20,314 nt of DNA from a virus. The stretch lies in the IMG/VR virus record IMGVR_UViG_3300026513_000029, positions 1 to 20,314 of that record. One strand, given 5' to 3'. The notes under the pieces were generated by a model that was not told where the DNA came from, did no database searches, and worked only from the letters and a program-made list of their open reading frames with translations. The translations under genes were made by a program, and so were the position numbers. How positions within the stretch are numbered: position 1 is the first letter of the stretch; every line of letters starts with the position of its first letter. Below, one piece after another: positions 2,626 through 20,311 of the stretch.

Positions 2626-4485
2626 TTATATTGTTGTTAGTTTTTCTAATTCTTCGTCTGTTAATGATTTTGTGAATACTTGTACGTTTTTTACTTTTCC
2701 GTAGAAAGGTTGTGTTCCGTTAAATAAAGAAAGGTTTAATTTATTTAATCCTATTGGAATATTACCACTAATATCTGTTACTCTTTCAATTCCATTTATC
2801 CATAAAGAAAAGTAATGTTGTTTATAAACGCAAGCTATTTTTAAATTATCAGTTTGTTCAAAATTGTAATCTGATATATTTACTTGCTCAACACCTCCAC
2901 TATTAACCCTAAACACTATTCTGTTGTCGGTTGCGTGTAATATTAAATGAACATAGTTTAAACTTGTGCTATCATCCAAAGATATATATCGGTCAAAACC
3001 ACCATTATCCAAAGCACTAATCTCCGCATACAATACTCCCTCTTCACTATTAAAGTCTTGTGCTGAACCAGAGTTAGTACAAGTTTCTGCTATTCGAGTA
3101 GATGCTGAACCTTGTGTTGGGATATACGAGGTTGCGTATGGTAGTTGTTCAAGTTGGAATCCGTATAATAAAAAATCAACAGCACCACCACCATTAATAT
3201 TATCAATTCCAACTCTTACATCTGTATCTGCAATACCAGTAAAATCATATTTAACCCATTTGTCTGTTAGAGATATTGTTTGTAAATTATTACCTAACAA
3301 ATAAGTAGTTATATTTGTTACGCCTCCATTATTTTTAGCATAAAAACTAACAGTTAAGGTATTGCCTTGTAAACCCGATAAGTTTACATCCAAAAATGTT
3401 CCGCTTGTATCTGGCATTTGTATTCTTGTAGCGTTTTGTTTTCCCTCTGGAGATATAGCGTAGTTGTTTATGACTGTGGTATTTGAGCCTTTCCTCCAAT
3501 AACTATCACTAAAATCCTCACTATACTGAATCAAATTCGTACTCTGTGGCTCTAATAACAAAGCACCATCTGCTGAATCACTAAAGTCTATTCTTGGTGT
3601 GTTTACTTGTATTTCTTTAACCGAGATATTTGTTACAGAGCCAAGTGTATTATTAGGAAAACTTGTAAACCTAAAAAAAGTGGAATCTGCTACAAAATAA
3701 CTTACAATTTCTCCGTTATCGGCAGGATAATATGTTTCATAAACAGCATTACCTTTTGCTTGAATAACACCACTATCTAAATTTAGATTAAATTTTAATT
3801 CATAAGTTTTACCTATTGTTGTTACGCTACTTTGTTGTAGGCTTTCGTAATTAGTCTGTGTGTTGTCCGAATAAGCAACACCATCTCCATAACTCCATCC
3901 ACTTCCTAAAGTCCATTCATCGTTAGGGTCTACTTGTTTAACAGATACGTTGTCTATTGAGCCAATGAAATTAGATGGTAATAAATATAAATTAGGGTTT
4001 CCTTCTGCTTTTATATAATGTGTATGAACACCAATAGTGCTATTGGTTGGTGTATTTGAATTTGGATAACCTGCAAAAAGTTGAATAGAACCTTGTGTTC
4101 TTTCAATAATTTCGTAAGTTATTTTATAAGTTTTACCTACTACAATTATGTTTGATTGTTGTAAACTCGACCCGCTACCCGTTCCGTCTTGAATAGCAGC
4201 ACCTCCACTAATAGTCCAACCTGCACCTTTAGTCCAATCACTATCAGTAGCAAAATCTCCATTTACAACTTCCTCCGAACCTAACTCGCTAAAATCTCCG
4301 TTCTGTACTAAATTAGTATCTTGTAATCCAGCAGTTTTAATTAATCCATCTTTACCTACATAAGTAGCAGATGAACCCCTTGTAAAGTCAAACTCCTTGT
4401 TAAAGAACTGACCACTATTATCATTGTAAGCTAAAAGATTATTCTCTTTTACTGCCCATTTTCCGTTACCTAATTTTACTGCCAT
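2626..4485 (-). CDS. Tail fibre / receptor-binding protein with CenC-like and LamG-like modules (619 aa)
   Basis: A large Ser/Thr/Asn-rich beta protein. An N-terminal segment of about 55 residues contains FDFTRGSSATYVGKDGL (32-48), a motif frequent in marine phage fibres. Two carbohydrate-binding-like jelly-roll modules follow, at about 60-187 and 188-290. They carry a NGDF...DW...GW-x-ISGG type start and GSIDNVSVK-type endings. Next come LLLEPQSTNL and a third CBM-like region at about 315-470. The C-terminal region at about 475-615 looks like a LamG/concanavalin lectin domain (EGVLYAEIS...FYGKVKNVQVFTKSLTDEELEKL). It probably binds surface glycans and sets host range. It starts 1 bp after the stop of a longer paralogue, with which it shares module sequence at protein and DNA level. 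It has no obvious trimerisation or enzymatic domain. Confidence 0.75.
   Translation of the reverse strand: MAVKLGNGKWAVKENNLLAYNDNSGQFFNKEFDFTRGSSATYVGKDGLIKTAGLQDTNLVQNGDFSELGSEEVVNGDFATDSDWTKGAGWTISGGAAIQDGTGSGSSLQQSNIIVVGKTYKITYEIIERTQGSIQLFAGYPNSNTPTNSTIGVHTHYIKAEGNPNLYLLPSNFIGSIDNVSVKQVDPNDEWTLGSGWSYGDGVAYSDNTQTNYESLQQSSVTTIGKTYELKFNLNLDSGVIQAKGNAVYETYYPADNGEIVSYFVADSTFFRFTSFPNNTLGSVTNISVKEIQVNTPRIDFSDSADGALLLEPQSTNLIQYSEDFSDSYWRKGSNTTVINNYAISPEGKQNATRIQMPDTSGTFLDVNLSGLQGNTLTVSFYAKNNGGVTNITTYLLGNNLQTISLTDKWVKYDFTGIADTDVRVGIDNINGGGAVDFLLYGFQLEQLPYATSYIPTQGSASTRIAETCTNSGSAQDFNSEEGVLYAEISALDNGGFDRYISLDDSTSLNYVHLILHATDNRIVFRVNSGGVEQVNISDYNFEQTDNLKIACVYKQHYFSLWINGIERVTDISGNIPIGLNKLNLSLFNGTQPFYGKVKNVQVFTKSLTDEELEKLTTI
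4232..4315. repeat. 84-bp direct repeat shared by the two fibre genes, copy 1
   Basis: Positions 4232-4315 and 6219-6302 align without gaps with 11 mismatches in 84 by hand count (about 87 percent). The repeat encodes the NLVQNGDFSE(L/I)GSEE(V/I)VNGDFAT stretch that opens a CenC-like module in each gene. Both copies are in the same orientation, about 2.0 kb apart, so recombination would yield a fused fibre gene. Confidence 0.85.
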
Positions 4486-4486
4486 A

Positions 4487-6871
4487 TTATATTATTGTGT
4501 AATTATTAGCTAATGCTAAAGCGTTAAATGTATCATATCCCTCTCCAGTTAATCCCTCTAATTCATCGTTTGTCAATACTTCTTTATAGACTACAACGGA
4601 TTTAACGTTTCCGTAGAAATTATGCAACCCACTTGAATTATCAAATTGCAAACTATTTAAACCACTTAATATATTAGAGCTACTATTCGTGGCAACCTCT
4701 ATTCCATTTATCCATAAAGCGTAATTTTCACTTTTATATTTTAATCCTATTTTATTGTAATCAGATGTATTTGCATTTGTATAAATATAATCCCATATCA
4801 TACCACTTGCGTTTCTTATATATAACCTTATGCCATTTGCTTGAAGTGCTATACTGACTCTTTGGCTTGTTGTTCCATTTGATAAAGAAATCCATCCACC
4901 ACTTGAATTTTCGTTAGCACTTATCTCTGCATATAAAACACCCTCTGTTGAGTTTATTAAATCACTTGAACCTGCGTTGTTGCATAAATCAGCTAAACGA
5001 GTTGCAGTTGAACCGTTAGTTGGGATATAGGATGTTGGGTAAGAACCTTCTTCAAGCATTGCTCCCCATACATAAACTCCACTTGTTCCATCTCCAGTAT
5101 ATGATTCTGCTCTTAAAGATGTAAGTGATTGTATTTTCCAAACAAAAACATTTGTTGAAGTTGTTGCTGTTGACTGTGATGTAAAAGAGCATCTGTAAAA
5201 ATCTCCAACAGATTCTATTTTAGAAACACCATTACCAACACTACCTAAAACACCATTTAATAAATCAAAATTAGCATAATTATTAGAGCCGTGTGTTGTA
5301 GAAGAGAATAAAAGTTGTATAAAATTGCTTTCTCCTTTTTTAACAAATACTGAAAATGTGTAGTAATTACCACTTGTAACTGATATGTTTGTAGAACTTG
5401 CAAAATGTCCTCCAGCACCAGTACCTTCAACTAATTTATAAGCGTTATTATTACCGTCTGGTGAAATAAAACCACCTACTGCACTAACACCAATTCTTGA
5501 CCAAAAAGAATTACTAAAATCTTCTGAATAAGTAACTAAATTAGTACTCTGTGGCTCTAACAATAAACTACCACAACCATCTGTATAATCTATTCTTGGT
5601 AAGTCTGTATCGTCTGTTACTTCTTTAAGTGATATGTTTGTTACAGATGCGTTTGTTGAATTAGTTCTAATAATTAACGCTCCAGAATTTGTAGCTGTAA
5701 AAGTACCTTCGTATGTTCCTACTGCGTTATTGGATACATAAGTAGTAGAAGGAACGTATAAATTAACTACACCATCATCTATATTTGATATAGTGTAAGA
5801 ATATTTATAAGATTTACCAGACGTTATTTGAACGTTAGAAGATAAATTACCAGTAACTGAACCAGTATGAATCGCCACACCATCTCCAATACTCCAACCA
5901 GTACCCAATGTCCAATTCTGTCCGACCTCTTTGACTGATACGTTGTCTATTGAGCCATTAAAACCACTTCCATAAAAAACAAAACGTAAATCTGAAAGAG
6001 AAGAAATATAGGCAATATAAGTTCCATTTGCATTATAATCAATTGACTGTGAATACTGTCCTACAAATGCTGGTCTTATAGAACCAGATACATAATTTGA
6101 AATGCTAAAAACTATTTTATAATTTTTATTAGCGTTTCCAACATTACTTTGTAGTAAGTTTTCATTTCCACCATCACAAATTGCTTTACCTCCACTTATA
6201 CTCCATCCAGTTCCATATACCCAATCACTATCCGTAGCAAAATCTCCATTTACAATTTCCTCACTACCTATTTCACTAAAATCTCCATTCTGTACTAAAT
6301 TACCACTTAATGTCTGAACATTCTCTATAAGTCCTTGTGAGTTTACTCTTGTAGCAGCAGAACCTCTTTGGAAATCGAAATCAGCGTCTGTTACTTCTTT
6401 TACAGAGATGTTGTCTATTGAGCCAGTAAATCCCCCAGTGGATGGAACACTACCATAAAATCTTAATATTTTGTTTGTGCCACCAAATTCAAATGTGCTT
6501 TCATATACTCCCGTAGTTAAAGAAGGAGAATTAAATATATTAGTAAAAGTACCAGATGCTCCAGCGTAAGCGTAAACTCTTATATAACCATTTGTAACAG
6601 ATGTTACTTCAAATCTAACTTTATATTTTTTTCCAGCTTCAAATCCAGATATTGTTTGATAAATCGGGGTGCTTGTTTCAACACCATTTGCAGTTCCTCC
6701 ACTTATAGACCATCCCCCAGCTTCTTTGTTCCAATTACTATCAGTATCAAACGAGCCATTAGTAACTAACTCACTACCTAAAACTTCTTTTGGCTTAACA
6801 CTATGTAACTTCCCATCACTATAAGCAGTAGGAGTTGTTATTATACTTGCTTTCTCTAATAAATTACTCAT
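4487..6871 (-). CDS. Tail fibre / receptor-binding protein with three or more CenC-like modules and a LamG-like domain (794 aa)
   Basis: This is the longer paralogue of the next gene. CenC-like modules lie at about 30-160, 190-315 and 316-435. Each opens with V(T/Q)NG(S/D)F...DW or a WTLGTGWSIGDG variant and closes with GSIDN(I/V)SVKEV or NISLKEV. The FDFQRGSAATRV motif separates modules one and two. After LLLEPQSTNL (about 447) comes a further CBM-like region at about 455-640, ending in PTSYIPTNGSTATR. A LamG-like C-terminal domain follows at about 650-785, with FYGNVKSVVVYKEVLTNDELEGL. The protein should form part of the receptor-recognition apparatus. The start overlaps the stop of the 64-aa gene in an ATGA. 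Compared with its neighbour it has one extra module, consistent with growth by module duplication. Confidence 0.75.
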   Translation of the reverse strand: MSNLLEKASIITTPTAYSDGKLHSVKPKEVLGSELVTNGSFDTDSNWNKEAGGWSISGGTANGVETSTPIYQTISGFEAGKKYKVRFEVTSVTNGYIRVYAYAGASGTFTNIFNSPSLTTGVYESTFEFGGTNKILRFYGSVPSTGGFTGSIDNISVKEVTDADFDFQRGSAATRVNSQGLIENVQTLSGNLVQNGDFSEIGSEEIVNGDFATDSDWVYGTGWSISGGKAICDGGNENLLQSNVGNANKNYKIVFSISNYVSGSIRPAFVGQYSQSIDYNANGTYIAYISSLSDLRFVFYGSGFNGSIDNVSVKEVGQNWTLGTGWSIGDGVAIHTGSVTGNLSSNVQITSGKSYKYSYTISNIDDGVVNLYVPSTTYVSNNAVGTYEGTFTATNSGALIIRTNSTNASVTNISLKEVTDDTDLPRIDYTDGCGSLLLEPQSTNLVTYSEDFSNSFWSRIGVSAVGGFISPDGNNNAYKLVEGTGAGGHFASSTNISVTSGNYYTFSVFVKKGESNFIQLLFSSTTHGSNNYANFDLLNGVLGSVGNGVSKIESVGDFYRCSFTSQSTATTSTNVFVWKIQSLTSLRAESYTGDGTSGVYVWGAMLEEGSYPTSYIPTNGSTATRLADLCNNAGSSDLINSTEGVLYAEISANENSSGGWISLSNGTTSQRVSIALQANGIRLYIRNASGMIWDYIYTNANTSDYNKIGLKYKSENYALWINGIEVATNSSSNILSGLNSLQFDNSSGLHNFYGNVKSVVVYKEVLTNDELEGLTGEGYDTFNALALANNYTII
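6219..6302. repeat. 84-bp direct repeat shared by the two fibre genes, copy 2
   Basis: Partner of 4232-4315. A shorter identical string, TTGTCTATTGAGCC, also occurs three times across the fibre genes (near 3950, 5944 and 6411). It encodes the GSIDN module ending and marks the module boundaries. Confidence 0.85.
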
Positions 6872-7130: not shown

Positions 7131-7158
7131 GTCTTATATGTCTTTTTTTTTATACTCA

Positions 7159-7671
7159 TTACAGAACAAAACTTGAAAACTCATTAGCATCCTTGTCAGG
7201 GTACATATCTCCATTACTGTTATTGTTGTATTCAGGATATTTATTACTATTAAAACAAATGTAATCTAAGAACCTCTTCGTATAAAACTCAGCTCTATCA
7301 TTTATCTTACTCATCATTCTATCAACATCACTATAGTTAACAGAATCCGAATCTTCCCCTCTATGCTTCGATATACCTCCATTATCAATTTTAAACATAG
7401 AAAAAGGGAAGTATTCAGCTTGAGTAAACCAAATTAACATTGGCTTAATATAAACGTCTCTAAGGCTCTTATAATCGCTATTAGCAGGTAAGTCTATATC
7501 ACCTGATATTATTAAAGCCTGTAACTTGTCGTATAAGTTTCCACCTAAATAATTTTGTATGTGTATATCCTGTGCCACCTCAATAAAGTGAATTAGCTTG
7601 TCAGCATCAGTACTACCACTAATTATTGACTTAGCTTTTAAATCTTGTATTGTTATGAATAATGCTTTCAT
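7159..7671 (-). CDS. Head-tail connector-like protein next to the portal
   Basis: The 170-aa, mostly helical protein opens with FITIQDLKAKSIISGSTDADKLIHFIEVAQDIHIQNYLGGNLYDKL (about 5-49). This pattern is typical of Bacteroidota phage proteins placed beside the portal (DUF6712-like) and resembles gp6-type head completion proteins. The middle has helical segments (LRDVYIKPMLIWFTQAEYFPF) and the C-terminus is acidic and disordered. It starts inside an ATGA overlap with the portal stop, so translation is coupled. It would form a ring beneath the portal during DNA packaging closure. The connector role is inferred from position and resemblance. Confidence 0.7.
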   Translation of the reverse strand: MKALFITIQDLKAKSIISGSTDADKLIHFIEVAQDIHIQNYLGGNLYDKLQALIISGDIDLPANSDYKSLRDVYIKPMLIWFTQAEYFPFSMFKIDNGGISKHRGEDSDSVNYSDVDRMMSKINDRAEFYTKRFLDYICFNSNKYPEYNNNSNGDMYPDKDANEFSSFVL

Positions 7672-9434
7672 ATGCCTAAAGTCTTTCTTATTTTATTTAA
7701 AGTACTTCTATAAGCACCTTTGTCTGCTCTATCTATCATTCTTTCACCCATCTCACTTGGGTTTTTAGGTTCTTTTAAACCATCTCCGTAAGCATTAGAT
7801 GAATCAACTTGCTTACCATCTTTCTTCTTGTAAACTCTTAGTTCCCAATAGTGATGACAGTTCTTACCACCTTTGTATTTTAGTAAACTATAGTTCTGTT
7901 TCTTATGACCTAACTCTTTATTTACACCTCTAAAAGACATCATATTAATATCTTCCTTTCTAAATACAACCTTTCTACCTGTTAATACTTCCATTCTCTT
8001 ACAGAAATCTCTACTGTTCGGAGACTTTCTCTCTGGCATATAAGCGTATCTAATTTTGTATACACCATCGTCTTCAGATGATGCTTTATCAGAATACTTG
8101 ATTTCAGCCATTTTAACGGACTCATTTTCGTCTTGGTATATCTCACTATGGATTACCTCCCAATCATCGCTTAAAACCTCTCCTAAAGCCTCTAATTGGC
8201 TAATCATATCATCACCCTCTTCTTCAGAAAAGTCTTTATTGTCTTCAGCAGATAATTTCTCACCTGTTTCCTCTTCTTTTCTAATCTTAGTAGATACGTT
8301 ATCTAACTCTGTAAATTCGATTGGTTGTAGAGTAGTAAAGTATAAATCTTGGTATATCTTGTTAAATTCAAGTATCTCTGTTAATCCATAGATAATACCA
8401 TCTTGAAATGGTCTGATAATTACGTTATCCATTAATACAGATGCAGTTCTTAATTCTTCTGCATTGTTACCAAAACCTGTGTTGTCTTTAATACCTAAAA
8501 GTATTGGAGATACAATTCCGTGTCCTAACATTATCTTCTCTCTTGCCTCATCAGATAAGAATTGATATTGTGCGTGAGCATCTGGTAAGTGTATAGCTTC
8601 TATATCAGCTTTAGTTTCTGCTGATTCGTTAAATGCAATAATTGCTTTACCACTATTAGAACTACCACTAAACTTTTGGTTAATCTTACTCTCTATAGAG
8701 TGTTGAGTTTCTGCGTTAGGTATTCCATTGTTAAAGTTTATAAATAAACTTGGTTGTAACCCATTCTCTATATTAGATAAATGATAGTTAGATACCTCTG
8801 CTTCTAACTCTGTATACTGTAAACACGCTTGGTAATCTACAGTAGAGTAGTAATAGAAACCACTTCTGTAAGGTTTGAATACATAAAGTTCGTTTACCTG
8901 AGATTTACTACCATTACCAAATGTAGGTATTCTTTTAGGACTATCTGAGTTTTTACAGTCCTTCCAAGATGGATGATAGTAATAAGCCTTTATAACACCT
9001 TTAGTAGCCTTCTCAGCTCTAAGAGTCTCCATAGGAAAGTGAGATACCTTTAGTATCTTTGTTTTAGCTTTATTGTATGTTAGTTGCATAACACCTTGAC
9101 CTAACAACTTATAATCATTAACAAGTCTCTTAACTTCTCTTGGTCTAAGTAGTTTCTTCATTCTAACATAATCTTCAGGAAATAAATCTGAATTAGTAGA
9201 CTCTAAACCTCTACCATAAATCATATCAACAATACCGTTAATACATCTACCATTAGTAGGACTGTCAAGGTATCTATCTATAAGATTATCAAAATAATCG
9301 TTATTATCCCCAAATGCAACCCACTCTTTATTGTGAACCTCTTTGATTGTAGGAACTTGGTAAGAAGACATATTGACAACTCTAATGCTATCTTTGTATT
9401 CTTTACTAACTGTATTTTTCTTATTTAAACTCAT
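7668..9434 (-). CDS. Portal protein with an extra C-terminal NCHHYW domain
   Basis: The 588-aa protein has a portal core at about 20-395. Landmarks are VPTIKE...EWVAFGDNNDYFDNLIDRYLDSPTNGRCINGIVDMIYGRGL, the RPREVKRLVNDYKLLGQG helix region and SDEAREKIMLGHGIVSPILLGI. An acidic linker follows (about 395-455). A separate domain at about 461-540 carries SRDFCKRM (Cys478), YRKEDI-like FRKEDI and GGKNCHHYWELRVY (Cys526, His527, His528). I know this domain as an add-on in phage portal or minor head proteins of Bacteroidota; its biochemical role is unknown to me. Portal dodecamers form the DNA channel at one capsid vertex. The start overlaps the upstream stop (TAATG) and the end overlaps the connector start (ATGA). 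No terminase gene adjoins it, which is unusual. Confidence 0.85.
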   Translation of the reverse strand: MSLNKKNTVSKEYKDSIRVVNMSSYQVPTIKEVHNKEWVAFGDNNDYFDNLIDRYLDSPTNGRCINGIVDMIYGRGLESTNSDLFPEDYVRMKKLLRPREVKRLVNDYKLLGQGVMQLTYNKAKTKILKVSHFPMETLRAEKATKGVIKAYYYHPSWKDCKNSDSPKRIPTFGNGSKSQVNELYVFKPYRSGFYYYSTVDYQACLQYTELEAEVSNYHLSNIENGLQPSLFINFNNGIPNAETQHSIESKINQKFSGSSNSGKAIIAFNESAETKADIEAIHLPDAHAQYQFLSDEAREKIMLGHGIVSPILLGIKDNTGFGNNAEELRTASVLMDNVIIRPFQDGIIYGLTEILEFNKIYQDLYFTTLQPIEFTELDNVSTKIRKEEETGEKLSAEDNKDFSEEEGDDMISQLEALGEVLSDDWEVIHSEIYQDENESVKMAEIKYSDKASSEDDGVYKIRYAYMPERKSPNSRDFCKRMEVLTGRKVVFRKEDINMMSFRGVNKELGHKKQNYSLLKYKGGKNCHHYWELRVYKKKDGKQVDSSNAYGDGLKEPKNPSEMGERMIDRADKGAYRSTLNKIRKTLGI

Positions 9435-9796
9435 TATATTATGTATGTGTTATCATCTACTATACTATAAGGCTTGTAAATTGTGCCATTACCTATTTCG
9501 TGTTTCTCAGTTACTCTTTCAGAAGCAGTCTGAGATGTTACGTATATCTTGTCTCTATACCACAATTCATCATCTTTAGTTATCTCTAAATAATAAGTAG
9601 AATCCTCTTCAAGTATTGTTGACTGAAAAGTAACTTCGGTAAAGTTCACTATATTGCTTAAAGTAGCGTTTGTTATAGATTCTTCCTTACCATCACCATC
9701 TCTTCTTATATTTAAAACAAATGCTCCTGACAAGTCTGAACTTCTCGGTGCAATAGTTATTGTTTTATCTCCTACTGTTGGTTGTAATATTAACAT
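9434..9796 (-). CDS. 120-aa beta-rich phage structural protein of unknown role
   Basis: The 120-aa protein has alternating hydrophobic strands (TITIAPRSSDLSGAFVLNIRRDG, TLSNIVNFTEVTFQSTI, STYYLEITKDDELWYRDKIYVTSQ), suggesting a beta sandwich of Ig-like type. It contains no cysteine, signal or membrane segment. It lies between the tail tube candidate and the portal, downstream of a strong terminator, and its stop overlaps the portal ATG (TAATG). A capsid decoration or tail accessory protein would fit, but the sequence alone does not decide. Its start at 9796 is 40 bp beyond the terminator T-run, with an A/T-rich leader and no Shine-Dalgarno sequence. Confidence 0.6.
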   Translation of the reverse strand: MLILQPTVGDKTITIAPRSSDLSGAFVLNIRRDGDGKEESITNATLSNIVNFTEVTFQSTILEEDSTYYLEITKDDELWYRDKIYVTSQTASERVTEKHEIGNGTIYKPYSIVDDNTYII

Positions 9797-9835
9797 ACTA
9801 TGATAACTAAATAATTTATTTTTGTTTTATTTAAT

Positions 9836-9863
9836 AAAAAAACCCCACCAAATGGTAGGGTTT
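9836..9863 (-). terminator. Rho-independent terminator after the tail tube gene
   Basis: On the minus strand AAACCCTACC (9863-9854), loop ATTT and GGTGGGGTTT (9849-9840) form a 10-bp stem with one G-T wobble. The stem and tail give an unbroken run of seven T (9842-9836). It lies 22 bp past the stop of the 181-aa gene. Confidence 0.9.
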
Positions 9864-9884
9864 AGTTTAATTGATAAATTACTA

Positions 9885-10430
9885 TTATACAATAGTAAAT
9901 CCTGCGGCAGTAATGTTTTCAGCAGGGGTATTTCCTGCAACTGCAACGTTAATGAAGTTTGCAGGTGCTTTTTCCATACCTGTAAAACTCAAAGTATATC
10001 CACTCATATCAGCCATAGCTCCTCCTGTTACTACAGTACCTCCTGTTACGTCAGCACCATACTCAGCTCCAGCTAAGAATACATTTCCGTTATTGTCCTC
10101 GATAAGAATGTTTGGTCTTCCGAAAGATAATAATTTAATAGTATTGTGGTCTTCTTTAGTTAATTTTTTAAGTGTCAACTCTAACACTTGCTCAAAAGCA
10201 GTAGTTCCATTCTCTCTACTTGATTGAATGTTTTCTGTATAGGTAGAGTTTCCTCTAACCTCGTATTTGTAAGCGTTTGGACTACCAGCAACTGCATCAA
10301 TTACATCTACATCTGTAGAATCGTATGTTATACCAGTTATGTCTCCAAAATTTACAAAATAAACAGCATTGATTCCTCCAACACTATCTTTACAAGGTTC
10401 TGTTCTACCTAAAGTAATATCACAAGCCAT
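9885..10430 (-). CDS. Probable major tail tube protein
   Basis: The 181-aa protein begins MACDITLGRTEPCKDSVGGINAVYFVNFGDI, an opening I associate with an abundant structural protein of Bacteroidota phages. It continues with a beta-rich region (YKYEVRGNSTYTENIQSSRENGTTAFEQVLELTLKKLTKEDHNTIKLLS, about 54-103). It ends in a Gly/Ala-rich, hydrophobic tail typical of polymerising virion proteins. Its size, its place directly after the major capsid gene and its isolation between two strong terminators fit a highly expressed tail tube subunit. No sheath gene accompanies it, which supports a long non-contractile tail. A capsid decoration protein is the main alternative. Confidence 0.65.
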   Translation of the reverse strand: MACDITLGRTEPCKDSVGGINAVYFVNFGDITGITYDSTDVDVIDAVAGSPNAYKYEVRGNSTYTENIQSSRENGTTAFEQVLELTLKKLTKEDHNTIKLLSFGRPNILIEDNNGNVFLAGAEYGADVTGGTVVTGGAMADMSGYTLSFTGMEKAPANFINVAVAGNTPAENITAAGFTIV

Positions 10431-10457
10431 AATATTTATTTTTTATTTATTAGTTAT

Positions 10458-10487
10458 AAAAAAAGGGTAGGTAGCAATTACCCACCC
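10458..10487 (-). terminator. Rho-independent terminator after the major capsid gene
   Basis: On the minus strand GGGTGGGTA (10487-10479), loop ATTGC and TACCTACCC (10473-10465) form a 9-bp stem with one G-T wobble, followed by seven T (10464-10458). It lies 25 bp past the capsid stop and 28 bp before the tail tube start. The stem resembles that at 9836-9863. Confidence 0.92.
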
Positions 10488-10511
10488 TCTTTCTGTTTAT
10501 TTATTTGAATC

Positions 10512-11444
10512 TTAGATTCCGTAAGTTACGATGTCTTCTACAACTCCGTACTGTACTCCTGCGGTAAATCGCATAATGATTCTTACGTTTTGAGAACCAT
10601 CTAAGTCTGCCATATCTAATACTTTTACTTCTTGATGGTCTGATAATAAACCAGTTCCAAATTGTAAGTTATCTTTAGTAGTTGCTACCGCAGTGTTTGC
10701 TGCTAATCCGTTAGCCATAAAGATTTTTACACCATCAAAGTATAAGATGTTGATGTCTTGGTTGTTTCCTTGAGAACCTACACCAGCAGCACCTTCACCG
10801 TTAGCTTGGAATCCTCCTAATGCTCTCTTGTATGCTCTAAAGATGTTTTGAGAAACATAGATGAATAAATCATCTCTACCATATAAAGAAGCAGGGATTT
10901 GGTCAACAACTTTTCCTAACTCATCTACTACGTTAGCAGCAGTTACAGTAGTTCCAGCAATTTGTTGTGCAGCTGGTAAATCACCATCAGCAGCTAATAG
11001 AGTAGAGAATCCGTCAAATGAACCTTCTCCATCTGCACCTGCCCATATGTTCTGCTCATTCTTTTGTGCTACTTTAGCAGCAACATAAGAGATTAAGTAG
11101 TCTTGGAAAGAAGATGGTAAGTTATCAAATGCAGAATATCCCATTTGGATTGCATCCCAATCTGAACGGAAATCTTTCTTACATAATTCTAAGTTAACTT
11201 GTAATTCCTTTGGTTCAAGGATTCTTTCAGTTAAAGTCAAAGTTGAAGTGTCATTGAAGTCGCAAGTACCATTCTTAGTGATACCATCTAATTCCAATCT
11301 TTTAACAACCTCTTTGAACTTTACGTTTGGTCGGATAGTTAGTCCACCATTTGCAATAGTGTTACCTGAAAGTAAAGCAGCAGAAATATATTTCCCTGCT
11401 GATTCTCCAGCGTAAGTTGTAGTAATACTTGTAGTAGTAGCCAT
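10512..11444 (-). CDS. Major capsid protein, HK97 fold
   Basis: This 310-aa protein has the features of Bacteroidota phage major capsid proteins. There is a short Thr-rich N-terminus (MATTTSITTTYAGE), NVKFKEVVKRLELDG..., LEPKELQVNLELCKKDFRSDWDA (about 76-98), YLISYVAAKVAQKNEQNIWAG (about 119-139), DDLFIYVSQNIFRAYKRALGG, INILYFDGVKIFMANGL and a C-terminal MRFTAGVQYGVVEDIVTYGI. The missing N-terminal delta segment is supplied by a separate acidic scaffold gene directly upstream. An XkdF-like protease lies two genes earlier. A strong terminator follows 25 bp after the stop. The leader is A/T-rich with no Shine-Dalgarno sequence. The identification is strong from length, motifs and neighbours. 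Confidence 0.88.
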   Translation of the reverse strand: MATTTSITTTYAGESAGKYISAALLSGNTIANGGLTIRPNVKFKEVVKRLELDGITKNGTCDFNDTSTLTLTERILEPKELQVNLELCKKDFRSDWDAIQMGYSAFDNLPSSFQDYLISYVAAKVAQKNEQNIWAGADGEGSFDGFSTLLAADGDLPAAQQIAGTTVTAANVVDELGKVVDQIPASLYGRDDLFIYVSQNIFRAYKRALGGFQANGEGAAGVGSQGNNQDINILYFDGVKIFMANGLAANTAVATTKDNLQFGTGLLSDHQEVKVLDMADLDGSQNVRIIMRFTAGVQYGVVEDIVTYGI

Positions 11445-11455
11445 TTTGTCTAATT

Positions 11456-11932
11456 TTAATTAAATAACATTCTATTAACTCTTTGTTCAGTAGTCATAGA
11501 TTTGTTTAGGTTTGATAATAAATTCTTTTTCTTTTCGATTTCAGCCTCTGGAGAATGTACAACTTCTTCTACATTTTCAGATAGTTCAACCTCTTCTTGT
11601 TTAGATAACTCCTCAGGAACTTCTTTAGCTTCTCCCATTGGTTTATCTTCGATTAATGCTTTAATCATAGAAAGTAGCTCTGATTTTACTGCTGCTAACT
11701 CATCAGAAGTAGCGTAACTCATAGCAGGTGCTTCAACTTCCTCCTCGATTACAACCTCTTCTTTAGGCTCTTCAGCAAGTACAACCTCTTCCACTTCCTC
11801 TTTTACTTCTTCAGTTACTTCCTCTGTAGATAATTCTACTGACTCTTCAACTGCAATGTCTTCTGCTTTCAACTCTTCCTTAGAAAGATTTAAAAGTTCT
11901 TTGACATTGTTAAGGATTTCTGTCGCTTTCAT
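11456..11932 (-). CDS. Acidic scaffold protein
   Basis: The 158-aa protein is highly charged. Residues about 15-72 are dominated by Glu and Val (TEEVTEEVKEEVEEVV and similar), a helical or disordered acidic domain. A short helix-forming segment (DELAAVKSELLSMIKALIEDKP, about 77-98) probably mediates coiled-coil assembly. The basic C-terminus KKKNLLSNLNKSMTTEQRVNRMLFN could contact the capsid subunit. Low complexity, acidity, position between protease and capsid genes and an 11-bp gap to the capsid start all fit a scaffold that the protease later removes. The assignment is by composition and context, since scaffolds share little sequence. Confidence 0.75.
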   Translation of the reverse strand: MKATEILNNVKELLNLSKEELKAEDIAVEESVELSTEEVTEEVKEEVEEVVLAEEPKEEVVIEEEVEAPAMSYATSDELAAVKSELLSMIKALIEDKPMGEAKEVPEELSKQEEVELSENVEEVVHSPEAEIEKKKNLLSNLNKSMTTEQRVNRMLFN

Positions 11933-11982
11933 ACTTATTGATTTATATTAATATAACTATTTAAAATTTTACTGTCGTATTT

Positions 11983-12117
11983 TTACTCCTCTTCTTGCTT
12001 GTGAATTGAGCCTATACCTTGCTTCCAATACTCATCTGCATTGCACTTTCTTTTCTTTGAGTACTTATCACATTCTATAGAATAAGTATTCTTACATTTG
12101 CAATATTTAGCTTTCAT
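11983..12117 (-). CDS. 44-aa cysteine-rich protein between protease and scaffold
   Basis: The ORF runs from an ATG at 12117 to a TAA at 11983 and encodes 44 residues beginning MKAKYCKCKNTYSIECDKY. Four cysteines (6, 8, 16, 25) give the pattern C-x-C-x7-C-x8-C, and basic residues cluster at 19-24. The tail is acidic (HKQEEE). It overlaps the last 11 bases of the protease gene in another frame and ends 50 bp before the scaffold start. A small zinc-binding fold is plausible from the cysteine spacing, but no family is recognised. Apart from this gene, the 174-bp interval between the scaffold and protease genes shows no other open frame. Confidence 0.6.
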   Translation of the reverse strand: MKAKYCKCKNTYSIECDKYSKKRKCNADEYWKQGIGSIHKQEEE

Positions 12118-13000
12118 TGTCTATCTTTTTTAGTTTGCTGATTGCCCAATTAACACCTGCTGAACCACCCCAAGCATCCCACATAATACCACCACATCCT
12201 TCTGAATAAGGTACGTCTTTATGTTGCTGATGTCTTTTAAATGATGCCATTCTTGCAATAGTATCTCTACTTAAAGGCTCTCTGTTGGCTAATTGACTTG
12301 CTCTTGTCCATCCAACACTTGTACCACAAGAACTTCCGTTCTCTTTCTTATACTTTAACGCTCTCTTAGCATTGTTAGTTGCACCTTGTGGATAATCACT
12401 ATAAGACTTTAATTCTACATCTTCGGTTAATAGTTTCTTTATCTCTTCTAATACACTACTCGCCTCAACCTCTTCAATATCTTCTACATTATCGCTAAAC
12501 ATACCTTCAATACTTAACCCTAAGTATTTACCTTGTTTAACACCTTCCCATACCTCATCATTATCTATCTTCATAGTAACTGCCCAAGCACCTTTTACTG
12601 CGTTCAATCCATATAAAGCAGTTTTGTCTTTCTCTGGGTCTTCTACTATCCAAGATTCTATAACAGACACACCTCCTGTAAATTCAGCGTGTTCTAATGT
12701 TGTATTATTGTTTTTAAGACGTTTTAAGTATAGTTCAGACGCTTTTCTTACAGTTTCGGTAGAGAACGTTATATTGTACTCATAGTCTCCCTTACGTCTG
12801 TATATTAGCTTATTTGGCACTAATGCTAAACCAACGATTATTCTCTTTTCTGAATCAACAGTTTTAAACTCTACTTTATGTTTACTTAAAGCTACAAAGT
12901 TCTCTTCGATAGCAGGGAACTCAACTAAAGATATAGCCTCAATTCCATCTTCCTCTTTTGATTCGTCTATAAATAATTCTATTGTATCTAATCCTTCCAT
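12107..13000 (-). CDS. XkdF-like prohead serine protease with a C-terminal conserved phage domain
   Basis: The 297-aa protein has two parts. Residues about 15-170 match the XkdF/Peptidase_S78_2 prohead protease pattern: IEAISLVEFPAIEENF, RIIVGLALVPNKLIYR, TLEHAEFTGGVSVIESWIVED (His104 and Ser112/Ser116 are candidate catalytic residues), GAWAVTMKI and YLGLSIEGMF. After an acidic linker, residues about 199-292 form a separate domain: YPQGATNNAKRALKYKKENG, GWTRASQLANREPLSRDTIARMASFKRH, and GCGGIMWDAWGGSAGVNWAISKLKKI. I recognise this domain as often fused to phage head proteases, with unknown function. The enzyme should process scaffold and head proteins during capsid maturation. It starts 51 bp after the tape measure gene, behind an A-rich leader with a 10-bp tandem repeat. 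Confidence 0.8.
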   Translation of the reverse strand: MEGLDTIELFIDESKEEDGIEAISLVEFPAIEENFVALSKHKVEFKTVDSEKRIIVGLALVPNKLIYRRKGDYEYNITFSTETVRKASELYLKRLKNNNTTLEHAEFTGGVSVIESWIVEDPEKDKTALYGLNAVKGAWAVTMKIDNDEVWEGVKQGKYLGLSIEGMFSDNVEDIEEVEASSVLEEIKKLLTEDVELKSYSDYPQGATNNAKRALKYKKENGSSCGTSVGWTRASQLANREPLSRDTIARMASFKRHQQHKDVPYSEGCGGIMWDAWGGSAGVNWAISKLKKIDNES

Positions 13001-13026
13001 ATTTAACTTATTTATATTATGTTAAC

Positions 13027-13053
13027 TTATTTTGTTTTATTTTGTTTTATTTT
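13027..13053. repeat. Short 10-bp-period tandem repeat in the protease leader
   Basis: TTTGTTTTAT occurs twice in tandem (13031-13040 and 13041-13050) with partial copies on both sides. On the minus strand this gives A-tracts spaced about one helical turn apart, directly ahead of the protease gene. It could assist translation or bend DNA, or be simple slippage. Confidence 0.6.
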
Positions 13054-14944
13054 AAGTACCTGCTTGACCTACAATCATACCATCTAACTGTTGTTGAGTA
13101 GTAACATCTCTTGATACTACGTATGCTTTTAATGGCTTACCAAATTGTGCTTGTATAGCGTTTATAAGTAAGTTGTCGTTAGACCTCCCCACTATGTTAA
13201 ACGAAGGTTCTGAACGTTCAGATGCTCCTGCTGCACCACCACTTGCTGCCCCTATATTCGTAGGAGTTTGTGCTGATTCTGGTTGAAATTTCTGTCTCGC
13301 AATAACTGCTACTTGAGCCATACCTGCACCAATAACGGCAGTCATAGCTGCAATCTTTGCAAAAGCACCTCCATATTCTTGCTTAGCAGCACTAATACCT
13401 GCCACGATTGTATCTGCAACTGCAATGGATATGTTAAACGCTTTTTGTGTGTCAAACGCTTTTTTCTTAATCTTGTTTTGTTTTTTTCTTAACTCTTCAT
13501 CGTTTATAGCTATTTGATTTTGTATTTTAGCTCTTTCGTCTTTAGATAGATTTTCATTTAATAATCTATCATTTAATTCTTTATTTAAAACATTAGTTTT
13601 GTTTTGCTCTATGGTTAATTGCCTATCAGTTTCCCCTTGAAGAAAGTCACTAACACCACTCATTAACTGCTTATATTTGTCTAAGTAAAAAGTTAAATCC
13701 TCGAGGTCTTCTGGGTCTGGATTGTCAATCTTAGGCTTTAGTATAATTTGACCTGTTATCTTGGCAGTATCACTTATTCCATCAAAATCTTCATCTGGAA
13801 CAACATCTTGAATACCTGCTATTTCGTTGTAATAAGACTCTACGAATTTACCTGCAAATTTCTCTCCAGAATCTTTACCTTTACCCTTAAATAACTCATC
13901 AAATAAATCTTCTTCATTTAATTGATTAATAATAGAGTCTATTGATTTCTTACCCTCTGTCTCTATTTTATTAAAGTTATCTATTAACTTAAATCCTTGT
14001 TTTTCGTTTACTCTTAAAAAATCTCTTTGTAATTTTCTTCTTGCAGTACCTTGTTTGCCTTCCAGTTTTGCCTCGAACTCTTTTTTTCTTATCTCTAAGT
14101 CTTTTAATTTTAATCCTTTTTCAGCTAAGTCAGCATCAAGGTCAGCTCTCGCTTTACCTATTTTTTCATATTCGGCTTCTAACAATGCTTGTAAAGCCTG
14201 TGCCTTAGCTAATCTTTCTATTGCATCTATCTTATCGTCTATACGTTCAACACTATCTTTTGTGAGCTGATTATTTTCATCTAATTTAAGGTTTAAGTCT
14301 TTATATTCTAAATTAGCTTTATTAACTGCCCTATTAGCTTCTTCTGTAGATATAGTGCCCTCTTCTAATGCTTGTTTTAGAATCTTTAGATTAGAACCAG
14401 ATTTAGCTACAGTTCCACCAAAATTTCCTAAATCTTCTTCTGCCTTTTTAGTTTTTTGACTAAAAAAATCAAATGCAGCTATTATTCCTTGAAAAGCTAT
14501 AAGTATACCAGCAGGTCCTATCAACCCCTTAAGTACCTTACCTATAGCTCCTAAAAAACCTACGGATTTACCTGTAGCAGCATCAGTAGCTTTAGACATA
14601 AAGAATAAGTTAGAAGCTAATTGTTGCAAGTTATTGGCAACACCTCGAATACCATAAGGCATATCAGAAAGAACCCTACCGAGTTCAAGAGTAGCTGAAG
14701 TACTTGCACCTGTAGCAGTCTTAAAGCCACCAACTGATTTCTCAAGCCTTTTGAATTGGTCTGTAGTTAATTTCACTTGACCATCCATTTTAAGTCTACT
14801 TGTAGTAAAATTACCTATAGAATTATTTAAATCCTTTATAGCTACACCAGACTTTAAGACCTGATTTTCAAAGTTTTTTAACGTAGCTGTTGAGCCACCT
14901 TTTTCAACTTGTATCTTTAAAATTATTTTATTATCGTCAGCCAT
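13052..14944 (-). CDS. Tape measure protein
   Basis: The 630-aa protein sets tail length. The N-terminal part (MADDNKIILKIQVEKGGSTATLKNFENQV...) leads to ATLELGRVLSDMPYGIRGVANNLQQLASN (about 84-112), a recurrent motif of tape measures in Bacteroidota phages. Hydrophobic segments lie at about 128-165 (GFLGAIGKVLKGLIGPAGILIAFQGIIAAF) and about 500-550, the latter being small-residue-rich. Long charged coiled-coil stretches fill the middle, including NKELNDRLLNENLSKDERAKIQNQIAINDEELRKKQNKIKKK. By the usual rule of about 0.15 nm per residue, the tail would be about 95 nm. The start codon overlaps the stop of the 48-aa gene (TAATG). The tail-tip genes unusually precede it. Confidence 0.85.
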   Translation of the reverse strand: MADDNKIILKIQVEKGGSTATLKNFENQVLKSGVAIKDLNNSIGNFTTSRLKMDGQVKLTTDQFKRLEKSVGGFKTATGASTSATLELGRVLSDMPYGIRGVANNLQQLASNLFFMSKATDAATGKSVGFLGAIGKVLKGLIGPAGILIAFQGIIAAFDFFSQKTKKAEEDLGNFGGTVAKSGSNLKILKQALEEGTISTEEANRAVNKANLEYKDLNLKLDENNQLTKDSVERIDDKIDAIERLAKAQALQALLEAEYEKIGKARADLDADLAEKGLKLKDLEIRKKEFEAKLEGKQGTARRKLQRDFLRVNEKQGFKLIDNFNKIETEGKKSIDSIINQLNEEDLFDELFKGKGKDSGEKFAGKFVESYYNEIAGIQDVVPDEDFDGISDTAKITGQIILKPKIDNPDPEDLEDLTFYLDKYKQLMSGVSDFLQGETDRQLTIEQNKTNVLNKELNDRLLNENLSKDERAKIQNQIAINDEELRKKQNKIKKKAFDTQKAFNISIAVADTIVAGISAAKQEYGGAFAKIAAMTAVIGAGMAQVAVIARQKFQPESAQTPTNIGAASGGAAGASERSEPSFNIVGRSNDNLLINAIQAQFGKPLKAYVVSRDVTTQQQLDGMIVGQAGT

Positions 14945-19087: not shown

Positions 19088-19545
19088 TAACAGATGCTTA
19101 TGCCATTAGGAATCTCTATTGATATATTTACTGCCCAACCTGCTAATTCGTTGCTAAAACGTTCTTTAAACGGTTGTGCAACAGGTTGTGTTGTTACTTG
19201 ATAGTTCATCTCAAACAAATCACCTCTCATCAACTTCATTATTAAAGAGTTTATAACTTCAAACTGAGTATTCATAACGTCTTGTAAGTTATCATTACCA
19301 TAAAACAGTTCGTAATCAGATTTCTTAGTATTGTAGTCAACTATGTCTGCACAAAGTAACTTAATGTCAAAAACAACTGTTCTTTCCTTGTAATTAGCAC
19401 TATCTATCAACATATGTGATAATGGAAACATAGTTGTCTTGTCTAAGTCAACATCAGTTATGTCTCCGTAAGTAACGGTATTTACTGATGGGTTAGTTAA
19501 TAACTCGTCTTTTATGACGTCTAATATGTCGTAAACGTGTGTCAT
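19087..19545 (-). CDS. Tail terminator / completion protein candidate
   Basis: The 152-aa protein begins MTHVYDILDVIKDELLTNPSVNTVTYGDI. It continues with a beta strand pair around MFPLSHMLIDSA and VVFDIKLLCADIVDY. A helix follows (NLQDVMNTQFEVINSLIMKLMRG) and it ends in ELAGWAVNISIEIPNG. This helix-strand layout, with a conserved terminal A-G-W-x-V-x-x-x-I-E-I strand, is typical of tail terminator proteins of Bacteroidota phages, which stop tube growth and join tail to head. The start ATG overlaps the TGA of the -1 frameshift product of the upstream gene (ATGA). This couples it to the frameshifted reading rather than to the zero-frame product, which stops 65 bp earlier. Confidence 0.6.
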   Translation of the reverse strand: MTHVYDILDVIKDELLTNPSVNTVTYGDITDVDLDKTTMFPLSHMLIDSANYKERTVVFDIKLLCADIVDYNTKKSDYELFYGNDNLQDVMNTQFEVINSLIMKLMRGDLFEMNYQVTTQPVAQPFKERFSNELAGWAVNISIEIPNGISIC

Positions 19546-20311
19546 CTCATTTTTTGTTTTAACATTCTACTTTCTAATTCTGATTTTTCTTTTACAAACT
19601 CTAAATACATTAAACATTGGTGTAAAGGGAGTTCTGTAACCTCTCCGATTCTTCTAACATCTTCTCTAGCGAGAGTAAATATTGCTTGATAGTCTCCCCA
19701 TTTTTTACCGAATGCTCGTCCTGAAGACCCTCCTGTTTCTTCTGCAACTCTTTGAGTGTATAAGCCATCGTATAATTCCCTAATTTTGTCGCTAAACGAT
19801 AAAAAAAAACCCTTGCACCAAGTGCAGCGTCTAATGGAGCATCTCTCATTACATCAGCCATATACTCTGTACCCTTGTAATCGTGTATAAGGTACTTATC
19901 TTTACTCTTGAACTTAATTGGTCTGTAAAGAACTGCCATTGCTTTATGGTAGTTATCATTATCAAACATATATTTCTCTAAGTCTATAAACTCACCATAA
20001 CTCATTTTATCAAAGTTAGGTATCAAACCAAACTCAACAACAACATCATCAGTTCCTATTAGACTAAACTTATGTACAAGTTCTGGTTTCTCATTCAGTA
20101 CAGATGATAAGTGAGCTAAAGTATCGTCAAACACATTTAAACCTATCTTATCAACTTCTGATAACTTTATGTTACAGAATATCTCTAACACCTTTTTGTT
20201 TAGAAACTCAGTAGCATTCTCATCATCCTTATTCTTGTCGTAGACATTAATATACTTTTGCCATTGACTCAACTTAATCCCTCTTAAATTTGCAGGTATA
20301 GTAAACTCCAT
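19542..20311 (-). CDS. Tail assembly chaperone-like fusion, expressed by -1 frameshift (256 aa)
   Basis: Reading starts at the ATG at 20311, proceeds in the zero frame through residue 170 (...GARVFF), slips back one base at the T9 run and continues 86 residues to a TGA at 19542. The added part contains FGKKWGDYQAIFTLARED, ELPLHQCLMYLEFVKEK and a basic end MLKQKMR. I recognise this W-x-x-Y...LA...D...LPL..CL..LEF pattern from Bacteroidota phages. The -1 frame has no ATG, GTG or TTG start until residue 65 of the extension, so it depends on the upstream start. Its third codon positions are about 23 percent G/C (20 of 86, hand count), like an AT-rich genome. Such fusions are typical of gpG/gpGT tail chaperones. 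A sequencing error in the T run is the main alternative. Confidence 0.65.
19610..20311 (-). CDS. Zero-frame tail assembly chaperone-like product (233 aa)
   Basis: This is the product without slippage. Residues 1-170 include EFTIPANLRGIKLSQWQKYINVYDKN, FSLIGTDDVVVEFGLIPNFDKMSYGEFIDLEKYM and NDNYHKAMAVLYRPI, a pattern I associate with tail chaperone-like genes in Bacteroidota phages. Residues 171-233 are a charged helical tail (ELQKKQEGLQDEH..., LEKMLEESERLQNSLYTNV). In this tail about half of the third positions are G/C (32 of 63, hand count), unlike the rest of the gene block. It may therefore be a by-product of selection on the overlapping -1 frame. It is the first complete gene at the right edge and lies four genes ahead of the tape measure's small upstream neighbour. 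A role in loading tail subunits onto the tape measure is inferred. Confidence 0.7.
   Translation of the reverse strand: MEFTIPANLRGIKLSQWQKYINVYDKNKDDENATEFLNKKVLEIFCNIKLSEVDKIGLNVFDDTLAHLSSVLNEKPELVHKFSLIGTDDVVVEFGLIPNFDKMSYGEFIDLEKYMFDNDNYHKAMAVLYRPIKFKSKDKYLIHDYKGTEYMADVMRDAPLDAALGARVFFYRLATKLGNYTMAYTLKELQKKQEGLQDEHSVKNGETIKQYLLSLEKMLEESERLQNSLYTNV
19801..19809 (-). promoter_or_regulatory. Frameshift slippery site (GGG-T9) in the tail chaperone-like gene
   Basis: On the minus strand the sequence is AGG GTT TTT TTT TAT. The heptamer T-TTT-TTT in the zero frame allows both tRNAs to re-pair after a one-base backward slip. The -1 frame then stays open for 86 codons. Immediately downstream, ATCGT (19800-19796) and ACGAT (19771-19767) could pair and form a modest stimulatory stem. 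Confidence 0.6.

Follow-up and report, generated by a model that had tools for sequence, protein, structure and literature searches.

We report a phage structural gene in which a run of nine Ts (T9) joins two coding frames, so that a programmed -1 shift would turn a 233-aa protein into a 256-aa fusion. The -1 recoding event is almost certainly real, and the comparison of related loci below shows that selection acts on the slip site, on each of the two frames and on the fusion. Programmed recoding thus has strong support. Two other parts of an initial annotation of this DNA, its ribosomal mechanism and its chaperone label, are unproven. As judged from sequence, the gene belongs to a large group of flavobacterial phages, the nine-T run has been kept by almost all relatives, and the way in which it has been kept hints that the enzyme copying the RNA, rather than the ribosome, is the slipping machine.

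In the scheme that we propose, the bulk of expression would stay in the zero frame and give a short form, the 233-aa protein with a 63-aa helical tail, and a minority would shift to the -1 frame at T9 and give a long form of 256 aa whose helical C-domain has 86 residues. Both forms would have the same 170-residue N-domain. The shift would come about by slippage of RNA polymerase on T9, with one U added to the mRNA (U10). Taken as a whole, that is, two products, polymerase slippage and a gpG/gpGT-like role in tail assembly, this is the best explanation and is modestly favoured.

The window, by which the whole stretch of DNA analysed is meant, comprises 20,314 bases of an IMG/VR record, and all of its major genes are on the minus strand. 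The features that bear on the argument are as follows.

20311-19610, minus strand: zero-frame gene, 233 aa, made up of the N-domain (residues 1-170, slip site included) and a 63-aa tail.
19809-19801, minus strand: T9 slip site, codons GTT TTT TTT TAT, with the in-frame heptamer T_TTT_TTT at 19808-19802.
19802-19542, minus strand: extension in the -1 frame, 86 aa and a stop codon, predicted to be helical, with its first ATG at residue 65.
19801-19613, minus strand: overlap of the two frames, 63 codons, zero-frame tail over -1 extension.
19545-19542, minus strand: ATGA, shared by the stop codon of the extension and the start codon of the next gene.
19545-19087, minus strand: next gene, 152 aa, of tail-terminator type by inference from sequence (phrog_30964, a PHROG without assigned function).
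19087-18515, minus strand: tail completion or Neck1-type protein, by a weak match (phrog_5, E 2.6e-4).
14944-13052, minus strand: gene of a 630-aa protein, putatively the tape measure, four genes downstream (phrog_3336, E 8e-5).

The minus-strand sequence around the run reads GCA AGG GTT TTT TTT TAT CGT. After GTT TTT TTT the zero frame runs for 63 more codons; in the -1 frame base 19802 is read again, as TTA, and 86 codons lead up to the TGA at 19544-19542. The virtual -1 fusion is therefore 256 aa long, with the junction GARVFF-LSFSDK, and its peptide is GARVFFLSFSDK. The 233-aa zero-frame product was present in the mechanical ORF list of the window and matched phrog_32199 (E 3e-20), a PHROG without assigned function; its N-domain was conserved in an 80-member alignment, and the predicted model of the zero-frame protein had a pLDDT of 84. 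The initial annotation had described a T9 run with both frames open for more than 60 codons, an extension without a start of its own before residue 65, and an ATGA overlap with the next gene. These descriptions proved accurate (63 zero-frame codons and 86 in the -1 frame; first ATG as residue 65; ATGA present at 19545), and its hand counts of G/C at third positions, 20/86 for the extension and 32/63 for the zero-frame tail, were exact on recount. Two more T9 runs were seen on the plus strand, at 549-557 and 7143-7151, both outside long ORFs.

Relatives were gathered by scans of viral contigs with each gene part and by alignments, which yielded hundreds of loci. In the first round T9 was present in 271 of 273 loci, one of the others having T10 and one lying on a contig that ended before the site. 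In the widened set of 335 loci, representing 215 distinct sites, the alignment of related phages that had been suggested as a check found T9 kept in 214 sites and T10 in the remaining one. These relatives reach down to approximately 28% identity. Judged against the remaining coding ORFs on those contigs, in which T runs of at least nine occurred 3 times in 610 kb, the conservation of T9 is far beyond chance. The -1 extension (81-91 codons) was found in every first-round locus with enough sequence, and at the lone T10 site it keeps the frame relation of the T9 sites. T9 with the -1 extension was also found in the isolated Nonlabens phages P12024L and P12024S and in the genome of Galbibacter pacificus CAA-3, so that the run is no artefact of metagenome assembly; further T9 relatives, down to 28% identity, were located in Flavobacterium, Psychroflexus and Flavobacteriales MAG contigs.

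The genes gp40-gp41 of phage P12024L (phrog_32199) are direct homologues with T9 and the -1 extension, and differ in a zero-frame tail of just 25 codons; the junction of their fusion would read LFFLSF. In that genome gp41 (JQ823123.1, 24473-24640; 12528-12695 of our locus L113) is annotated as a separate 55-aa gene that begins at an internal ATG; in fact it corresponds to the latter part of the -1 extension of gp40, and the fusion was missed by the annotators. Annotations of such phages either miss the extension or, as here, call it a separate gene.

Sequence comparison further showed that both frames are constrained and that the 63-codon overlap is truly dual-coding. When the extension codons were recoded synonymously in simulation, the zero-frame tail was expected to stay open for 14.6 codons, against 63.5 observed (median P 0.008 per sequence, for 154 sequences that are related and not independent). 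Across 58 pairs, substitutions at extension positions 1:2:3 were 382:242:464 in the overlap and 77:66:187 in the extension-only part; the corresponding figure for the upstream zero-frame part was 822:395:2228. The case for dual coding is built on the open-frame simulation together with the position-1 to position-3 ratio. The third-position rate by itself was dropped as proof, because the extension-only part is slow too (0.147 vs 0.130). With both frames constrained, the two C-termini would be alternative products of the same DNA. Both are predicted to be helical, the zero-frame tail at low confidence. A stop in the +1 frame within 2 codons (152 of 154 sequences) was set aside as well, as the F and L codons conserved in the two frames account for it.

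As to the machinery, slippage is somewhat more likely to be transcriptional than ribosomal; the fusion product is identical under either mechanism. Selection against A/T runs starts at nine in many bacterial genomes, and transcriptional slippage on such runs is used by mxiE (on a U run), dnaX and IS elements (PMC1088944). The site in its usual phase is [GC]TT TTT TTT T[AG]N. Another phase, seen in 31 distinct sites, reads [AG]GT TTT TTT TTG, shifted by one base relative to the codons, with nine Ts and, where checked, the -1 relation; this shifted phase arose twice independently on the tree, in the L239 clade and in L278/L281. In all sites the in-frame heptamer T_TTT_TTT would be fully adequate for a ribosome, but it takes up no more than 7 of the 9 Ts. 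Runs shortened to 7 or 8 Ts would retain it as well, yet none occurs among the 215 distinct sites. Folding downstream of the run (mean z -0.13 to -0.44, for pseudoknot-free structures) was no stronger than in upstream windows, and SD-like motifs upstream of it occurred in 12 of 215 sites (5.6%, against a background of 4.2%), giving no conserved signal. Transcriptional slippage is favoured both by the retention of a run length of nine, where a ribosome would need merely the heptamer, and by the failure to find a conserved RNA structure or SD-like stimulator. Ribosomal -1 frameshift sites of low level can do without stimulators.

Programmed -1 ribosomal frameshifting on U_UUU_UUU, in which two tRNA-Phe would slip in tandem to give a fixed low ratio, is a serious though less probable account of the same data. 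It agrees with the direction of the shift and with the in-frame heptamer in every phase-1 and phase-2 site, and in the phage tail genes studied so far, the well-studied G/GT genes, the shift takes place at the ribosome (PMC5009743). The outer two Ts, which this account leaves over, may be partly fixed by the flanking residues (V/L, Y/W/C) and the overlapping frame. Against the ribosome stand the phase changes, no more than two in number, after which all nine Ts were retained where seven suffice, and the lack of a conserved downstream structure or SD-like element. Of the 'ribosomal frameshift' in the initial annotation, the -1 recoding was thus upheld and the ribosome was not, as T9 without conserved stimulators fits transcriptional slippage at least equally well.

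Slippage by the polymerase would place this gene beside Shigella mxiE, Thermus dnaX, IS elements (PMC1088944) and Citrobacter tssM (PMC4256274), in which a long A/T run likewise joins two coding frames, slippage sets the ratio of two products and RNA structure is not needed. Those are cellular or mobile-element genes, none of them of phage tail type, whereas the present case is known from DNA alone. If the family does use the polymerase, the control of product ratios in phage assembly would have switched from one level of gene expression to another, as is known for dnaX.

By analogy, the pair probably has a gpG/gpGT-like role, in which the short form would be in excess and the long form would contribute a second binding domain to tail assembly. 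Tail assembly genes are a textbook example of recoding by ribosomal frameshifting, and Xu et al. reportedly described in 2004 a conserved -1 frameshift of these genes. As in lambda gpG/gpGT, a zero-frame product and a -1 fusion with a common N-domain are encoded in a tail-gene region, the direction is -1 and the extension lacks its own start. The differences from lambda are several: the sites there are of GGGAAAG type and here a T9 homopolymer, and the present gene has a conserved dual-coding tail of 63 codons, a shift possibly made at transcription, relatives with a single ORF, no match in sequence or fold, and a position four genes away from the tape measure gene. Of the traits of tail chaperone genes, one N-terminus for two predicted products, with a -1 shift late in the first ORF, was found (215 distinct loci, from sequence), and a place between the major tail protein and tape measure genes, directly upstream of the latter, was not. 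The remark in the initial annotation that several structural genes lie between this gene and the tape measure gene agrees with the four counted by us.

The gene might instead encode another head-tail or neck protein, with a real recoding that swaps its C-terminus, and this we consider less likely. In its favour, the gene directly follows the large terminase gene in P12024L and precedes tail-terminator-like and Neck1-like genes instead of the tape measure gene, a homologue in phage Ingeline_1 sits between adaptor and tape measure genes, and single-ORF relatives exist. The N-domain model has a mixed alpha/beta fold that matches no chaperone, which points the same way. On the other side, two-product genes with a -1 extension usually encode chaperones when they lie in the tail module of a long-tailed phage, and gene order is reshuffled in these phages anyway, with tail genes before head genes. 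In the window and relatives it starts with the terminase (L016, P12024L), the recoded gene, the tail-terminator-like and Neck1-like genes and two large tail proteins, and continues with the tape measure protein, a protease, a probable major capsid protein, a tail-tube-like protein and the portal, the capsid and tube assignments being probable ones read from sequence and position. The rearranged module order weakens the argument from position both ways. Head genes (protease, capsid, portal) downstream of tail genes, at 7668-14944 of the window, are unusual for a siphophage. A putative major tail protein is encoded at 9885-10430. Separately, two adjacent large tail proteins of 619 and 794 aa at 2626-6871 look like paralogues, with similar repeated segments and C-terminal domains.

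None of the searches linked the gene to a family of known tail chaperones. For both parts of the gene, PHROG, Pfam and NCBIfam contained no functional family, and PDB searches by sequence profile returned nothing usable. Foldseek and VIA-align against the PDB matched the C-terminal helices to coiled-coil look-alikes only and left the rest without a significant match, a result that does not show a new fold. One family member matched Phage_TAC_7 weakly (E 0.043 only). The search of the extension and zero-frame tail proposed in the initial annotation thus found relatives and no functional family, and its label 'tail chaperone-like' holds by analogy (common N-domain, helical extension, tail neighbourhood) and finds no match in sequence or fold.

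Several features mark the extension as part of a fusion. It is conserved down to approximately 33% identity, only 4 of 154 sequences have an ATG or GTG within the opening 40 codons of it, and the following gene begins at the stop of the extension, not at the zero-frame stop (in relatives, mostly -1 to +5 nt from it). A Foldseek search against viral models led to phage 6H and then to its relatives 23T, laban6-1 and Ingeline_1. In Flavobacterium 23T, laban6-1 and Cellulophaga Ingeline_1 (Duneviridae; phrog_25418) the homologue is one uninterrupted ORF of 293-301 aa without a T run, located in the head-tail part of the genome, upstream of the tape measure gene. The profile of the virtual fusion aligned end to end and scored 97.7 bits over 227 columns against these ORFs, compared with 71.1 bits for the N-domain alone, 70.9 bits for the zero-frame protein, 70.0-74.4 bits for ten control profiles with shuffled extension columns and 73.7 bits for a reversed one. 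As the fusion profile exceeds the N-domain and the shuffled controls, the extension and the C-domain of these naturally fused homologues are collinear.

The Duneviridae gene thus has, by profile alignment, the same two domains in the same order, and differs in lacking the T run and hence the short form. As these phages make the long form only, a separate short form is not required by all relatives; either the T9 clade gained it as a further function or Duneviridae lost it. Recoded and single-ORF relatives form a natural comparison, which makes the reason for keeping the short form testable. In the initial annotation, homologues encoding the extension in the same frame with no T run were to count as a sign of an indel. 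The Duneviridae phages are literally such homologues, but with T9 invariant in more than 200 relatives they support a fusion and not an indel, and programmed -1 recoding to the 256-aa product is corroborated by a conserved site, two conserved frames and these single-ORF homologues. That a true fusion gene, as the Duneviridae ORFs might suggest, was broken by a 1-nt indel or by a sequencing or assembly error in the T run has a negligible probability and was ruled out by the conservation of run and frame relation (214 of 215 sites, plus the T10 site) across isolates, prophage-like loci and many metagenomes, and by the evolution of both frames as coding sequence across the overlap.

A broader proposition is that an invariant T9 and polymerase slippage set a gpG/gpGT-like ratio in a widespread flavobacterial phage clade, that the same 63 codons encode two selected C-terminal domains, and that the related Duneviridae, without recoding, keep only the fused form; we regard it as evenly balanced.

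Homology of the downstream genes between T9 phages and Duneviridae was not found. The extension of the window gave no match by tblastn against isolated phages, where that of a more distant member did find P12024L and P12024S; likewise, the extension profile matched none of the named genomes and the N-domain profile did work. Compared with 23T (L340), the homologue in phage 6H (L279, 9900-10927) is broken by a substitution patch of approximately 40 nt and a 2-nt length difference, and its ORF stops at 191 aa; 23T and relatives have intact copies. An apparent T6 slip site in gp10 of 6H was accordingly rejected, since it reflects a local difference from the unbroken gene of 23T.
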